A stretch of 58,515 nucleotides of DNA. Source: an uncultured Gammaproteobacteria bacterium (GTDB lineage: Bacteria > Pseudomonadota > Gammaproteobacteria > Nitrosococcales > Methylophagaceae). The notes below the pieces were generated by a model. That model searched no databases, was not told the DNA's origin, and saw only the letters and a program-made list of their open reading frames with translations. The translations under genes and the position numbers were made by a program. The stretch lies in contig CALCCU010000167.1 in the NCBI GenBank assembly GCA_937900515.1, positions 1 to 58,515 of the forward strand, in the 5' to 3' direction. Positions 25,246 to 30,518 of this stretch are shown here, piece after piece (positions within the stretch are counted from its first letter, which is position 1; each line of letters opens with the position of its first letter).

Positions 25246-26646
25246 CTAGTTAGATGCCGTTTTAAAAGAAGCAAGCGCCCTCTCTCTCCCATACTTTAGA
25301 TCTATGATAGGGCTTGGATAGCTATCTGGTTTATCTTTATTAGGAAGGTGGATTTGTTTGTCATCAAGTGAATCTAATTGGGGAAGAAGGAACCGGATAA
25401 ATTTGCCTTGAGGATCGAAACGCTGTGACTGAGTGACAGGGTTGAATATTCTGAAATAAGGTACCGCATCTGTGCCTGTTGATGCAGACCATTGCCATCC
25501 ACCATTATTTGCTGCCAAATCACCATCAACCAGATGTTGCATAAACCAACGTTCACCTAGGCGCCAATCGATTAATAAATGCTTGCTTAAAAACATGGCG
25601 CATACCATGCGAAGTCGATTATGCATCCAGCCGCAGGTCAGCAGTTGTTTCATCGCGGCATCAATAATTGGGTAGCCTGTTTTACCTTGTTGCCAGGCTT
25701 CTAAATCACTCTTATCGTTACGCCAAGGTATAGCATCGGTATATTGTTTCCATGGCTGATGTTTACAAATGTAAGGGAAGTCAATTAACACATGTTTATA
25801 AAACTCACGCCATAACAATTCATTTTGCCAAACAGTCGCACCATCAGATTGTTCACAGTACTGTGTAGCCAGCTGCCAACATTGTTTTACTGAGATGACG
25901 CCACTATTTAAATATGGAGATAAAAAACTAGTGCCACGAACAGATGGAATATCACGGTTTTTCTTATAATCATGGATTAGATTAGTTGTGCAAAAATGGT
26001 GCAAGTTACTCGTGGCAACTTGTTCACCTGCAGGCCACATGGTTTGGATTGAGCTACTTACCTCTGGCCACTGTAGTTGCTCAATATTTTTCTGTTTAGC
26101 ATGGGTTGGTACTTGAATGTAGCTTTGTATGTGTGGTTTATAAGTGAGAGTGTCTACTTCATTTATTTGCAGTCGTGCTTGCTTAGCAAAAGGACTAAAT
26201 ACTTTAAATGGTTCACCTGCTTTAGTTCTAACACTAGCAGGGGGCAGTAATAATTGCTCATGGTAAGTATGACAAGCTATGTTTCTTTCTATGCATACAT
26301 TCTGCACGGCATGGTCACGGCGTTGCTCATTAATGGGGTATTCTTCATTAAAGTGAAGATCAGTTATTTTCCATGTTTGGCAAATGGAGATGATGAGCTC
26401 AGGCACTTCATCATAGCTAGCGACTTCAAAGAAATACAATGGGATATTGAGTTCTGCAAGCGAACGGTGAAGACACTCTAAATTACGTCGCCAAAAATCA
26501 ATTTTTACAGCGGCATCATCATGCTTAATCCATTGTTCTGGCGTAGCAATATAAATAGCAATGCTGGCTTGATTATTATGTTGACTGTGAAAAAGGGCTG
26601 GATTATCACTTATGCGTAGATCATTCCTAAACCAAACTAGCTGCAT
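25246..26646 (-). CDS. phrB: Deoxyribodipyrimidine photolyase (CPD class I)
   Basis: The 466-residue flavoprotein repairs cyclobutane pyrimidine dimers with blue/near-UV light. The N-terminal antenna-binding Rossmann domain starts MQLVWFRNDLRISDNPAL. The C-terminal FAD domain has TSFLSPYLNSGVIS, WQNELLWREFYKH, a TGYPIIDAAMKQL segment and WMHNRLRMV, and NNGGWQWSASTGTDA contains the conserved Trp and Asn region. The start is set at ATG 26646, six bases after the merR stop, rather than an upstream codon inside merR. It is third in the DUF523-merR-phrB operon, whose regulator probably controls it in response to light. Confidence 0.95.
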   Translation of the reverse strand: MQLVWFRNDLRISDNPALFHSQHNNQASIAIYIATPEQWIKHDDAAVKIDFWRRNLECLHRSLAELNIPLYFFEVASYDEVPELIISICQTWKITDLHFNEEYPINEQRRDHAVQNVCIERNIACHTYHEQLLLPPASVRTKAGEPFKVFSPFAKQARLQINEVDTLTYKPHIQSYIQVPTHAKQKNIEQLQWPEVSSSIQTMWPAGEQVATSNLHHFCTTNLIHDYKKNRDIPSVRGTSFLSPYLNSGVISVKQCWQLATQYCEQSDGATVWQNELLWREFYKHVLIDFPYICKHQPWKQYTDAIPWRNDKSDLEAWQQGKTGYPIIDAAMKQLLTCGWMHNRLRMVCAMFLSKHLLIDWRLGERWFMQHLVDGDLAANNGGWQWSASTGTDAVPYFRIFNPVTQSQRFDPQGKFIRFLLPQLDSLDDKQIHLPNKDKPDSYPSPIIDLKYGRERALASFKTASN

Positions 26647-26651
26647 AGTAA

Positions 26652-27557
26652 TTACTCTTTTTCCTTTAGATTCAACCAAGTTTTGAAGTTTTTTGATTCC
26701 CAGCAGCCTGATATATTTTCAATAGAATGCTGTGCTTCTAAATTAGAGAATATTTCTGAGTGTATAGAGGCTATAGCACCTGCTATAAATAGGTTTTTAT
26801 CCCACAAATTACGATGTTTATTGAATAGTTTTATATTGAGATCAGATAGCTTACTGTTTCCATAGACCAGTACAGGGCGATCATGGAGAGTCTCAAGGCT
26901 AACTAGTTCTGATAAGTCATTAAGTTGATTGATGGCATGAATGCGAACGCCAGATTGAAGTAATAAGCTATAAAGTAACCAATAGTCGAGTGTCTGCTTT
27001 TCATCATCTAGATTTATAAGCCAAATACTTGTACGTGATTTTTGTTTTTCCGCTCGTAAAGTCATTAAAGTGATTTGTCGTTGCCAGCATTGTTGCCACA
27101 GCTGCTGCTCTAATTGATAGCCAATAGCTTTGTCTTGCCAACGCCTCATTAAGCGCTGATGCAGTGAGCTGTATACCTGATTGCATAAGTACATAAAGGG
27201 ATGCGTTTTATTCAGCTTATCTAATAGCGGATTTAGACTATAAGGTTTGATCGCGATCAGGTTTTCTAACAGTTCGTCTTGAACTTGTTGCCATTCATGG
27301 CTTATATCTTGTGGTATTGGCGGTAAGATCTGCTTGGCGATTAAATCATCTATTTTGCTAATTTTGACACCACGATTAAGCCAATCAACAATCAGCTGAA
27401 TCTCAGCAATATTATCCTTGCTATATAAACGATGCCCTTTGGAGGTCCGCTTGGGTTTGATAAGCCCATAACGTCTTTCCCAAGCACGTAATGTGACTGT
27501 CGCAACACCAGTCTGTTGCGAGACTTCACTGATAGTTGCGTAATTGTTAGATTGCAT
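26652..27557 (-). CDS. MerR-family regulator, LitR/CarH-like without B12 motifs
   Basis: The 301-residue protein has an N-terminal MerR winged helix (ATISEVSQQTGVATVTLRAWERRYGLIKP, about residues 7-36, and GHRLYSKDNIAEI). A helical region and a Rossmann-like domain follow, arranged as in the photosensory B12 regulators LitR/CarH. The two cobalamin signatures are missing: the WxxxEH helix-bundle motif reads RWQDKAIGYQLEQQ with no His, and the ExHxxG-type motif reads DDEKQTLDYW. This fits class II LitR proteins, which rely on a separate flavin photosensor. It overlaps the preceding gene by 11 bases and precedes phrB, so it probably autoregulates this operon from the dyad at 28539. Confidence 0.85.
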   Translation of the reverse strand: MQSNNYATISEVSQQTGVATVTLRAWERRYGLIKPKRTSKGHRLYSKDNIAEIQLIVDWLNRGVKISKIDDLIAKQILPPIPQDISHEWQQVQDELLENLIAIKPYSLNPLLDKLNKTHPFMYLCNQVYSSLHQRLMRRWQDKAIGYQLEQQLWQQCWQRQITLMTLRAEKQKSRTSIWLINLDDEKQTLDYWLLYSLLLQSGVRIHAINQLNDLSELVSLETLHDRPVLVYGNSKLSDLNIKLFNKHRNLWDKNLFIAGAIASIHSEIFSNLEAQHSIENISGCWESKNFKTWLNLKEKE

Positions 27558-28491
27558 TTCTAAGACTCAAATCATCTGGGTAAGGTTGTAAATAGGCTTG
27601 TTTGGCAATATAGGGATCTGGGTGATTATTGAAATGATGTTGTAGCAGAGTAATCGGAACGATCAGTGGTATTTCTGCTAATCGATATCGCTCTATTAAC
27701 ATTGCAAGTTCTTGTTTTTCAGGTGAAGAGAGTACCTTTTTAAGATAGCCTTGAAGGTGCATCAACACATTGGTATGTGTTTTTCGAGTAGCTACTTTTG
27801 AGAGCGATGTCATCAGCATACCGAAGTAACGGTTGGCCAGTTCGTCAATATCGATATCGGCTTTATCAGCTAATAACTGCCCTAGTTCGACATAACGTGC
27901 AGGATCATGCGCCATTAGGCTATATTTATAACTGGAATGGAAATCTATAATCGCATGGTGGCTCAGTCCGTTTTGTTTGAGTAGTTGCCAATTATGATAA
28001 GCAAAAACGCGAGAGATAAAGTTTTCACGCAATGATGGGTCAGTGAGTCTTCCAGACTCTTCTACGGGAAGGTATGGATTGCTATCGGTAATCGCTTTGG
28101 CATACACCCCTCGACCAGGCTCTTGTGCAGGATAACCATTATCTTGATAGACCTTAACGCGAAATAGTCCACAACTCGGTGAGTTTTTCATAAAAATATA
28201 GCCACACAGATCTGAAACTTGTTTAGCTTTATCTTCGCTAAACTGTCTTAATTTTTCAGTGTGATTAATGCTGTTGTCATGAACTGCGACGACCTGAGGT
28301 GCGTTTATGTCACCGACTAAACGTATTGGTTTGCGTGGAATGCCTAAACCAATTGCGACTTCAGGGCATTCGGCAATAAATTCAAAATAGCGAGATAGAT
28401 CATTGCTACAAATACGTGAGTGTTTATGTCCACCATCAAATCGTACTTCATTGCCTAGTAGGCAACTGCTGATACCAACTTTAATCTTCAT
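27547..28491 (-). CDS. DUF523-DUF1722 (YbgA-type) fusion protein
   Basis: A 314-residue protein: DUF523 at about 1-150 (KVGISSCLLGNEVRFDGGHK, AECPEVAIGLGIPRKPIRL, FMKNSPSCGLFRVKVY with conserved cysteines) and DUF1722/YbgA at about 185-305. The start is ATG 28491, with AGGAG seven bases upstream; the longer frame begins inside the operator region and lacks family similarity. The biochemical role is unknown, but DUF523/YbgA genes recur next to photolyase and LitR-type regulators. It is first in the operon and transcribed from the shared control region at about 28.53-28.58 kb. Confidence 0.88.
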   Translation of the reverse strand: MKIKVGISSCLLGNEVRFDGGHKHSRICSNDLSRYFEFIAECPEVAIGLGIPRKPIRLVGDINAPQVVAVHDNSINHTEKLRQFSEDKAKQVSDLCGYIFMKNSPSCGLFRVKVYQDNGYPAQEPGRGVYAKAITDSNPYLPVEESGRLTDPSLRENFISRVFAYHNWQLLKQNGLSHHAIIDFHSSYKYSLMAHDPARYVELGQLLADKADIDIDELANRYFGMLMTSLSKVATRKTHTNVLMHLQGYLKKVLSSPEKQELAMLIERYRLAEIPLIVPITLLQHHFNNHPDPYIAKQAYLQPYPDDLSLRNAI

Positions 28492-28537
28492 TTCGTAACT
28501 CCTAGCGTTAATGAGGAGGTTAACAAGTGTTACAAAG

Positions 28538-28575
28538 TTGTACAAGAATAATTTTTTGTATAACATTGTTGTAAG
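28538..28575. promoter_or_regulatory. Dyad operator and divergent promoters of the putative light regulon
   Basis: TGTACA (28539-28544) and TGTATA (28557-28562) are separated by exactly 12 bases. As I recall it, the binding consensus of class II LitR regulators is T(G/A)TACA-N12-TGTA(C/T)A, which this matches fully. A plus-strand promoter coincides with it: TTGTAC (28538-28543), 17 bases, TAACAT (28561-28566), for the epimerase-hemH operon. On the minus strand TTACAA (28575-28570), 18 bases, TATTCT overlaps too. A bound regulator would block both divergent operons. Confidence 0.65.
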
Positions 28576-28598: not shown

Positions 28599-29504
28599 AT
28601 GAAATGTTATTTAATCCTTGGTGGAACAGGTTTGATTGGTTCTGCAATGTGTAAACACTTGCTTGATCAAGGTCACCAAGTCATGGTGATGAGTCGTGAT
28701 CCTGATAAAGTAAAAGCACAATTCGAAATGAAAGTGTGTCCGATACGCTCCTTGTCTGAGATTAGACCTGATGTGGTCATTGATGTTGTGATTAATTTAG
28801 CGGGTGAAGCTATTGCCGATAGGCGCTGGAGTAAAAAGCACAAAGGTGTAATTGAGTCGAGTAGGATTGGCTTAACGGAAAAACTGGTTGAGTGGCTAAG
28901 CGCTAGAGAGCAAAAACCAGAGTGTCTTATTAGTGGATCGGCTGTTGGTTGGTACGGTGATGGCGGCGATAAAATACTAATTGAACAGTCTACGTTTAAT
29001 GATGAATATACGCACCGCTTATGCGATGAATGGGAGCAACGGGCACTGCGAGCTGCTTCGCTTGGTATTCGTGTTTGTATTATTCGAACTGGGCTCGTTT
29101 TATCTGCAAATGGCGGCATATTGAAAAAAATGAGTCAGCCGATTAAATTTGGGGTAGGCGGTAGACTTGGCAGTGGTGATCAATATATGCCGTGGATACA
29201 TATTGATGATATGGTTGCAATATTAGACTTTTTAGTTGTGAACGAACAGCTGAAAGGGGTATTCAATGCTTGCTCGCCTAACCCAGTGAGCAATCGAGTA
29301 TTTACAAAAATACTTGCTAAAACAATGCGCCGCTATGCATTATTAGCAGTACCCGCATGTTTATTAAAAATACTATTAGGTGAGATGTCACGTCTACTAT
29401 TGACGGGGCAAAGAGCAATACCTAAGCATATGGTAGACAATGGTTTTCGCTTTACTTATCCAGAGTTGGCGCCTGCACTCAGTGCTTTATTAATTAAGAA
29501 ATAA
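28599..29504 (+). CDS. TIGR01777-family NAD-dependent epimerase/SDR protein (YfcH-like)
   Basis: The 301-residue extended SDR has the nucleotide-binding GGTGLIGSAMCKHL (residues 8-21), VINLAGEAIADRRW and SGSAVGWYGDGG with the conserved Tyr, then IRTGLVLSANGGIL and PWIHIDDMV, all typical of TIGR01777 proteins. The C-terminal DUF1731 segment (about 245-297) is present. The reaction is unknown. It starts 33 bases after the predicted -10 box and is followed by hemH after six bases. In several proteobacteria homologues are induced by light together with photolyase, which agrees with the shared promoter here. Confidence 0.88.
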   Translation: MKCYLILGGTGLIGSAMCKHLLDQGHQVMVMSRDPDKVKAQFEMKVCPIRSLSEIRPDVVIDVVINLAGEAIADRRWSKKHKGVIESSRIGLTEKLVEWLSAREQKPECLISGSAVGWYGDGGDKILIEQSTFNDEYTHRLCDEWEQRALRAASLGIRVCIIRTGLVLSANGGILKKMSQPIKFGVGGRLGSGDQYMPWIHIDDMVAILDFLVVNEQLKGVFNACSPNPVSNRVFTKILAKTMRRYALLAVPACLLKILLGEMSRLLLTGQRAIPKHMVDNGFRFTYPELAPALSALLIKK

Positions 29505-29510
29505 AATACC

Positions 29511-30518
29511 ATGACGAAAAAAGCCGTTTTATTAGCGAATTTAGGTTCTCCAGATAATACTGATGTGTCGTCAGTGAGACGCTACTTAAATGAATTTTTA
29601 ATGGATCGCTATGTGATTCAATTGCCGTGGATTCTACGTCGCTTGATTGTGAGTCTTTTTGTATTGCCTAGTCGACCGAAAGCGTCGGCTGAAGCCTATA
29701 AAAGTGTATGGATGAAGAATGGCTCACCTTTGATTGTGTTGTCTGAGCAATTAAAACAAGCAGTTCAAAAAAAGCTCGATATTCCTGTTGCGATGGCAAT
29801 GCGTTATGGTCAACCAAGTATTGAAAGTCAGTTGTTAGCATTGAGTCAGCAAGGCATTCAAGAGGTGCTTTATATTCCGTTGTACCCACATTATGCAGAA
29901 AGCACGGTGAAAACTTCTATTGAAGAAGCGAAACAGGTCATTGCGAAGCATAATTTATCGATTGAATTGAAAGTTGTTGCGCCATTCTACGAGCATCCAG
30001 CTTATATAGATGCTCTCGTTGCGAGTGCTAAACCTTATCTTGAACAAGATTATGATCATCTGATCTTTAGCTATCATGGCCTGCCAGAGTCACATATTAC
30101 AAAACTTGATGATTCTGGTCAGCACTGCTTGCAGCGCGGGGATTGCTGTCAGCAAGCTCATGAAGCTCACAAAACCTGTTATCGACATCAAGTGATGAGA
30201 ACGACCGCCTGTTTCTCTGAGCAAGCTGGCCTTGATCCGAGTAAATACTCGGTAGCCTTTCAATCGCGTTTGGGACGTGCGAAATGGTTAGGGCCCAATA
30301 CTGAAGACCGTTTGAGAGAATTAGCTGCGTCAGGCGTTAAAAATGTATTGGTGATTTGTCCCGCTTTTGTAACGGATTGTTTGGAAACATTAGAAGAAAT
30401 TGCTATTCGAGGCCAAGAGGTGTTTAGCGATGCTGGTGGAGAGAAGTTGACATTGATTCCTTGTTTAAATGATAACTCTGAATGGGTTGATGTAATTGCA
30501 TCATGGTCTAAAGAGTAA
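29511..30518 (+). CDS. hemH: Ferrochelatase
   Basis: The 335-residue enzyme inserts Fe2+ into protoporphyrin IX, the last step of haem synthesis. Family motifs are VLLANLGSPD (residues 6-15), the catalytic-His segment FSYHGLPESHI (about 190) and CPAFVTDCLETLEEIAIRG with the conserved Glu. An insertion after the His motif holds a cysteine cluster (CLQRGDCC...CYRHQ), seen in many bacterial ferrochelatases of this type; whether it binds a metal cluster is not shown by sequence. It lies six bases after the epimerase gene in the same operon under the LitR-like dyad. Light control of haem synthesis would limit photosensitising porphyrins. Confidence 0.94.
   Translation: MTKKAVLLANLGSPDNTDVSSVRRYLNEFLMDRYVIQLPWILRRLIVSLFVLPSRPKASAEAYKSVWMKNGSPLIVLSEQLKQAVQKKLDIPVAMAMRYGQPSIESQLLALSQQGIQEVLYIPLYPHYAESTVKTSIEEAKQVIAKHNLSIELKVVAPFYEHPAYIDALVASAKPYLEQDYDHLIFSYHGLPESHITKLDDSGQHCLQRGDCCQQAHEAHKTCYRHQVMRTTACFSEQAGLDPSKYSVAFQSRLGRAKWLGPNTEDRLRELAASGVKNVLVICPAFVTDCLETLEEIAIRGQEVFSDAGGEKLTLIPCLNDNSEWVDVIASWSKE

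Follow-up and report, generated by a model that had tools for sequence, protein, structure and literature searches.

A predicted LitR-type operator at a divergent rudS-merR-phrB operon in an uncultured lineage of the Methylophagaceae

The region between two divergent gene arms on a contig of an uncultured gammaproteobacterium of the family Methylophagaceae (a stretch of 58,515 bases, here called the window) carries the dyad TGTACA-N12-TGTATA, which is very probably the operator of the MerR-type regulator encoded beside it. This prediction of MerR binding follows from the distribution of the site because, among the relatives searched, the dyad occurs only where merR is present. We hold with good confidence the fuller reading, in which this cis-encoded MerR shuts the rudS-merR-phrB operon from the dyad, probably hinders the opposite arm, and is released most likely by light or photo-oxidation. 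The analysis showed in silico the dyad, its association with merR, a conserved leftward promoter, the content of the operon, and the fold of the regulator. The design is already known from Pseudomonas, and the operator prediction is sound and ordinary in kind; what it adds is that a light-repair switch studied experimentally in Pseudomonas extends into a different gammaproteobacterial family, represented here by an uncultured lineage in which operator, regulator, and target operon keep company. A question that follows is how a signal reaches a LitR-type repressor that has neither the B12 histidines nor a short LOV partner. A literature search listed no work on this operator for the lineage of the window, and the terms "Methylophaga," "photolyase," and "MerR" together returned no paper.

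Genes of the two divergent arms

The left arm is a contiguous operon on the minus strand, rudS-merR-phrB, whose genes overlap head to tail, by 11 bases between merR and rudS and by 28 bases between phrB and merR. The first gene, rudS (27547..28491), encodes a protein of 314 amino acids with a 2-thiouracil desulfurase domain (DUF523; Pfam PF04463) and DUF1722 (PF08349), the architecture of the RudS tRNA 4-thiouridine desulfidase. Its start is the ATG at 28491, where homologs begin aligning, and the start at 28566 in the open reading frame list is an upstream in-frame ATG. The second gene, merR (26652..27557), encodes a protein of 301 amino acids with a MerR DNA-binding domain (Pfam MerR_1), a four-helix bundle, and a Rossmann-like domain, and the third, phrB (25246..26679), encodes a deoxyribodipyrimidine photolyase recognized by Pfam and by NCBIfam NF007955 (527 bits against a cutoff of 506). 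The initial annotation of this DNA had recognized the LitR-like regulator and the photolyase but did not mention rudS, the first gene of the operon. RudS is described as clearing tRNA of the near-UV-sensitive base 4-thiouridine and as frequent in light-response operons (PMC11417400). On the plus strand, the right arm begins with a gene for a TIGR01777/YfcH-family NAD-dependent epimerase-like oxidoreductase (28599..29504; TIGR01777, 341 bits, cutoff 207), followed by hemH, which encodes ferrochelatase (29511..30518; TIGR00109, 255 bits, cutoff 125); both matches exceed their cutoffs, in agreement with the epimerase and ferrochelatase assigned earlier.

Sequence and rarity of the dyad

The intergenic region between rudS and the epimerase gene is 107 bases long, and the predicted MerR/LitR-type site, to which no strand is assigned, occupies 28539..28562, with TGTACA at 28539-28544, 12 intervening bases, and TGTATA at 28557-28562. 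It begins 47 bases from the rudS ATG and ends 36 bases from the epimerase ATG; the sequence from 28538 to 28566 is TTGTACAAGAATAATTTTTTGTATAACAT. The initial annotation had described an exact fit to the published class II LitR consensus, T(G/A)TACA-N12-TGTA(C/T)A, and this was confirmed; the site also has the extended form TGTACAA-N10-TTGTATA.

The pattern TRTACA-N12-TGTAYA has a single exact match in the 58.5-kb window, where dinucleotide shuffles lead one to expect 0.03. The plain consensus is found at two places in the whole 2.75-Mb genome, the other of which is inside an open reading frame of 352 amino acids that looks NtrB-like by eye, and the extended pattern TRTACAA-N10-TTGTAYA occurs once; scanning the inverted form of the pattern yielded only the palindromic place already found. 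When two mismatches were allowed in the extended form, the genome contained 36 places, compared with 47 for the reversed control. The bare motif is by itself a weak case and only modestly improbable genome-wide, because its second genomic place lies inside an open reading frame and the two-mismatch scan stays at the control level; it is for the latter reason that we name no other regulon member in the window's genome. The sole site above background in this genome is the one at 28539-28562. The only intergenic place with one mismatch (C12:12660) lies upstream of an unrelated open reading frame of 131 amino acids and is probably due to chance. The genome scan proposed by the initial annotation found no other promoter site ahead of folE, cryptochrome, or carotenoid genes, and the regulon recognizable from the sequence is this one region.

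Co-occurrence of the dyad with merR

Full-length merR orthologs (E below 1e-80) are present in 13 of 57 family genomes, all of the window's genus, while 31 other family genomes have weak matches only (E of 1e-5 or worse), mostly to the N-terminal part. A scan of the same 57 genomes for TRTACAA-N10-TTGTAYA gave 21 places in 13 genomes, which are exactly the 13 that bear merR, so that 13 genomes have both the dyad and full-length merR and the remaining 44 have neither; the reversed control gave one match in each of two genomes. The probability of such a coincidence is 1/C(57,13), or 4e-13, on the assumption of independent genomes, but the genomes are related and represent fewer than 13 independent events. 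At the merR loci themselves, which account for 15 of the 21 places, all 13 merR operons have the dyad in their control region, including 5 without the rudS-epimerase pair of the window type, and phrB follows merR in 11 of the 13 in the stretch that was read. The initial annotation had named nonconservation in close relatives as the finding that would speak against the site and had pointed to the regions upstream of orthologous merR-phrB loci; the dyad was found in every merR-bearing genome of the family and upstream at each of these loci.

The idea that the dyad is a meaningless near-palindrome that arose by chance in A+T-rich promoter DNA might draw on the two genomic places of the plain consensus, one of them within an open reading frame. 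It was rejected on the co-occurrence of dyad and merR across the 57 family genomes, and the fixed half-sites around varying spacers and the recurrence of the dyad in other families also speak against it; we consider it extremely improbable.

A search with rudS over 95 relatives gave matches in 41 genomes, from which the best 30 loci were read. The order rudS-merR-phrB is found in 8 of these best 30 (L003 to L010), all of the window's genus, and the same 8 carry the dyad at the same position. The other 22 have no adjacent merR, and none of them has the dyad, although 17 retain the divergence of rudS from epimerase-hemH. Five of the 22 belong to the window's own genus and have lost both the dyad and merR at this locus, and three of these five genomes (G011, G012, and G013) keep merR elsewhere; because of these losses, rudS is not an obligatory target.

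Between rudS and the epimerase gene, some of the merR-less relatives (within L011 to L032) have a different stretch in common, for example CTTGTATAGAGTCATAACAGCTGGCAAAGTTTAC in L014, L015, and L024, which is perhaps another kind of control element.

Related dyads in other gammaproteobacteria

One scan of GTDB genomes provided 80 named loci, 4 from the window's lineage and 76 from outside it, the latter mostly from Pseudomonas, with the rest from Halomonas-type and further Gammaproteobacteria. Of the 80 loci, 73 have the plain dyad, as do 69 of the 76 outside the lineage (the exact dyad is missing in 7 of the 80), counts that are not independent since many of the outside loci are closely related. 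Over the 80 loci there are 127 plain-dyad sites and 1 match for the reversed control, and the spacing peaks sharply at 12, with 5 sites at a spacing of 11 and 10 at 13. The rudS gene directly precedes merR in 66 of the 80 loci; a site lies within 200 bases of rudS in 59 of these 66, and 42 of the 66 have two sites. In the remaining 14 loci, a site is within 250 bases of merR in 9.

Class II LitR proteins of Pseudomonas (PplR1 to PplR3 in P. putida KT2440 and PmlR1 and PmlR2, with PmSB-LOV, in P. mendocina) resemble the window's MerR in their MerR helix-turn-helix (HTH) and in a CarH-like C-terminal fold without the B12 histidines, and the consensus T(G/A)TACA-N12-TGTA(C/T)A is likewise placed at the promoter -35 element, as described in PMC9758184. 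In the same account, the P. mendocina class II LitR binds the consensus and, in the dark, represses a light-induced operon with phrB and pmlR1, and blue light raises phrB about 28- to 33-fold and pmlR1 6- to 10-fold (PMC9758184, Table 1). The Pseudomonas operon also contains rudS, litR, and phrB, with epimerase-hemH near in many species. In contrast to the usual two sites in Pseudomonas, the window has a single dyad; its operon is reduced to rudS-merR-phrB and is directly divergent from epimerase-hemH, and its MerR shows 28 to 35% protein identity, falls in a separate clade, and has no short LOV partner that we could find.

A second counterpart is the blue-light operon of Vibrio cholerae comprising merR (VCA0056) and phr (PMC5241685), whose relatives in Salinivibrio and Aeromonas records share the order rudS-merR-phrB. 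All nine Vibrionaceae and Aeromonas stretches read (L231, L232, L234, L235, and L239 to L243, from Vibrio, Photobacterium, Salinivibrio, and Aeromonas; V. cholerae was not among them) have tandem TRTACA-Nx-TGTAYA pairs upstream of rudS. The dyads are of the same TGTACA type as that of the window, but there are two of them, and the spacing is mostly 11 or 13: Vibrio and Photobacterium have 11 (apart from a single 12 in L239), Salinivibrio has 12, and Aeromonas has 13. A predicted operator is thereby supplied for the rudS-merR-phrB operons of the Vibrionaceae and Aeromonas, and the occurrence of such sites at the same operon in Pseudomonas and the Vibrionaceae, together with the co-occurrence of the dyad with merR, bears out the initial proposal of a LitR-type operator for the cis-encoded MerR. 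The V. cholerae response is described as including a ChrR/sigma-E arm (PMC5241685), and the functions of class IV LitR, which occurs mainly in Vibrio, are called unknown in a passage of PMC9758184.

Fold and class of the MerR protein

The N-terminus of the window's MerR matches the MerR HTH family PF13411 with 66.7 bits (cutoff, 21.6). An AlphaFold model built from 41 sequences (mean pLDDT, 87) consists of the HTH, the four-helix bundle, and the Rossmann-like domain, and its 12 best matches in the PDB are all TtCarH chains (E values of 1e-11 to 1e-8); the C-terminal part of the model superimposes on TtCarH at 3.8 Å over about 200 columns. The overall fold and the HTH are thus like those of CarH and class I LitR, whereas the cobalamin histidines are absent from the window's MerR; the operator type of CarH and class I LitR also differs from the window dyad. 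In TtCarH, the EEH and GERHEIG stretches contain what we take to be the histidines that contact cobalamin, and no histidine occurs at these places in the window's MerR or in the other 12 members of the genus. A B12 photosensor of the class I LitR/CarH kind was rejected on account of these missing residues. The same stretches are not kept in the Pseudomonas-type rows of the regulator alignment, which took in 40 of the 80 named loci (L117, L124, L132, and L181 are among those left out); the Caballeronia row keeps both.

Model and sequence support the assignment of the window's MerR to the LitR/CarH family as a putatively B12-less member. The class II trait of a four-helix bundle that is kept together with a predicted lack of B12 binding is found here, and a Rossmann-like domain is modeled as well. 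The published statements differ, as class II LitR is called B12 dependent in PMC11417400 and lacking in B12 binding in PMC9758184; the sequences agree with a class II LitR that would not bind B12. Membership in class II is supported by the operator, the operon, and the nearest matches outside the lineage, which are from Pseudomonas and Halomonas, whereas the tree does not place the protein inside the Pseudomonas clade: in 47 rows (midpoint rooted, with long branches, and drawn from 25 of the 80 named loci, with PplR and PmlR not among them), the window's MerR falls in its own 14-row clade (100/99), apart from that of the Pseudomonadaceae, and the deeper nodes, where long branches meet, do not settle how the two clades are related.

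In P. mendocina, a short LOV protein brings about the release of class II LitR (PMC9758184). The window's own genome, which is 96.8% complete, has 45 places matching PAS_9, none of them in an open frame of fewer than 264 amino acids, and a search for the CRFLQG pattern gave no short LOV protein in any of the 13 merR-bearing genomes of the genus. Two matches to this pattern, in G004 and G010, fall in short frames unrelated to LOV domains. A narrower LOV pattern with Asn before the Cys matched in none of the 57 family genomes but is too narrow, since the short LOV protein in L185 has Asp at that place. The CRFLQG search was also run on seven control genomes with merR of the Pseudomonas/Halomonas type: two have a short LOV protein, a third has a LOV domain within a long sensor, a fourth gave a false frame, and the other three gave no match. 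As judged by pattern searching, hosts of this kind commonly lack a short LOV protein, and having one is not a strict trait of the family. Because the B12 histidines are missing and no short LOV protein was found in these searches, the sensor would be either another protein or MerR itself.

Predicted promoters and possible control of the two arms

The predicted promoter of rudS-merR-phrB (28517..28545, minus strand) has a -35 element, TTGTAC (28545-28540), that overlaps the rudS-proximal half of the operator, a spacer of 17 bases, and a -10 element, TAACCT (28522-28517), which is weak in the window but lies in the extended form TGTTAACCT. In nine aligned control regions (eight from the window's genus and L105), the pattern TTGTAY-N14-TGnTAnnCT, reading into rudS, is kept in all nine while most bases between vary, and the half-sites of the dyad are likewise fixed while the spacers differ. 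A rightward promoter, TTGTAC (28538-28543)-N17-TAACAT (28561-28566), had been proposed in the initial annotation wholly over the dyad (28538..28566, plus strand). These hexamers are present in the sequence, but conservation on the epimerase side of the nine loci is confined to bases that also belong to the dyad, and the rightward -10 hexamers read TAACAT, TAGATA (three loci), TAACTT (two loci), TAATAA, TAGTAT, and CAACTA. As drawn, the rightward promoter is less probable than the leftward one because its -10 element varies, whereas the extended -10 element of the latter is conserved throughout.

The same operator and repressor might serve a regulon consisting of rudS-merR-phrB only, with epimerase-hemH expressed independently of MerR, and we regard this as a real possibility that falls somewhat short of an even chance. 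It is the leftward promoter alone that is conserved with the dyad, the right arm gets by without this control in the 17 loci that keep the divergent arrangement in the absence of merR and the dyad, and in genome G019 the epimerase gene is away from two dyads, behind other genes. However, the epimerase gene of the window starts so close to the dyad that its promoter must overlap or cross it, and outside the lineage a dyad is present no more than 250 bases upstream of the epimerase gene in 13 of the 62 loci in which the start of that gene could be seen. These 13 dyads support right-arm control only loosely because they also face a divergent gene, FAD-oxidoreductase-like in the examples read, and that of L137 is the site before rudS. 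Shutting of both arms from one site, as the initial annotation suggested, is geometrically likely, and it is from this geometry that epimerase-hemH becomes a candidate for control by MerR.

Proposed mechanism and inducing signal

In the mechanism that we favor, MerR would bind TGTACA-N12-TGTATA, cover the leftward -35 box, and thus shut rudS-merR-phrB, its own gene included (autorepression). Bound MerR would probably also hinder epimerase-hemH, since this arm starts 36 bases beyond the site. An inducing signal, most likely blue or near-UV light or the resulting photo-oxidation, would make MerR let go, and its release would allow the synthesis of photolyase for DNA repair, of RudS, which would strip tRNA of photosensitive 4-thiouridine, and of further MerR. 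Binding, repression, and the signal are inferred from the Pseudomonas counterpart, and the response to light would follow from Pseudomonas and from gene content.

MerR may instead answer to a related stress (singlet oxygen, peroxidized lipid, or nitrosative stress) and not to light, as a photo-oxidative-stress regulator of the kind proposed for the MerR of V. cholerae, which is thought to act through reactive oxygen (PMC5241685). The lack of B12 histidines in MerR and of any photoreceptor partner in the PAS_9 search of the window's genome and in the LOV pattern searches would fit such a signal, as would the occurrence of the dyad, in other genomes of the genus, at genes for a membrane oxygenase, ferredoxin, reductase, and glutathione transferases. 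In opposition to this, a photolyase, which is useful only in light, adjoins merR in 11 of the 13 loci, and the Pseudomonas counterpart is induced by blue light (PMC9758184); we consider a signal other than light unlikely.

Sites away from merR in the genus

Six of the 21 extended-dyad places in the family genomes are away from merR, all of them between genes. In G013, a dyad precedes a gene for a desaturase-fold membrane oxygenase. In G019, one dyad separates a vWA/CbbQ-type pair from an operon that encodes this oxygenase together with a ferredoxin, a reductase, and a glutathione transferase, an arrangement found in part in G023 as well, and another precedes glutathione-transferase-type genes. 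Two dyads with differing spacers (L092:4381 and L095:4452), one in each of the genomes G012 and G013, are in the gap between genes that look like rlmE and ftsH. The assignments of NtrB/NtrC, FtsH, RlmE, "AlkB-like," and "Trp-rich" were read by eye, without a family scan. In five genomes (G011, G012, G013, G019, and G023; stretches L091, L093, L094, L096, and L097 to L101), a dyad adjoins the oxygenase gene, whole or as a fragment, in places together with ferredoxin, reductase, glutathione transferases, and the vWA/CbbQ-type pair. The AlkB/desaturase-like oxygenase was rejected as a necessary partner of the regulator: the window's genome has no copy of the gene, five merR-less genomes (G003, G016, G017, G036, and G045) have it, and in the merR-bearing genomes G002 and G010 the only dyad is that at merR.

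It is tempting, though decidedly speculative, to see in this genus a distinct clade of B12-less and LOV-less LitR repressors that read the Pseudomonas class II operator, would receive a light or photo-oxidation cue by another route, and in some species may have been rewired from DNA and tRNA photorepair to the oxygenase with ferredoxin, reductase, and glutathione transferases. If this were true, the operator would be an ancient gammaproteobacterial light-damage switch in which the sensor has been swapped and the spacing has shifted by single bases, with the window's genus having the 12 bases of Salinivibrio and Pseudomonas, between the 11 of Vibrio and Photobacterium and the 13 of Aeromonas.

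Other features of the genome

Contig 12 of the same genome contains an open reading frame of 228 amino acids (L188:312-998, minus strand) made up of 15 WYxAN repeats. It matches no Pfam family (best match, E of 0.45), and queries for "WYEAN" and "WYxAN" turned up no peptide paper; the product could be a repeat peptide or a multi-core precursor. In the window itself, the stretch at about 39.7 to 43.1 kb (L070) is 100% identical, in inverted orientation, to contig 121 (L069) over at least 3,309 bases, which reflects either a duplicated piece or an assembly effect.
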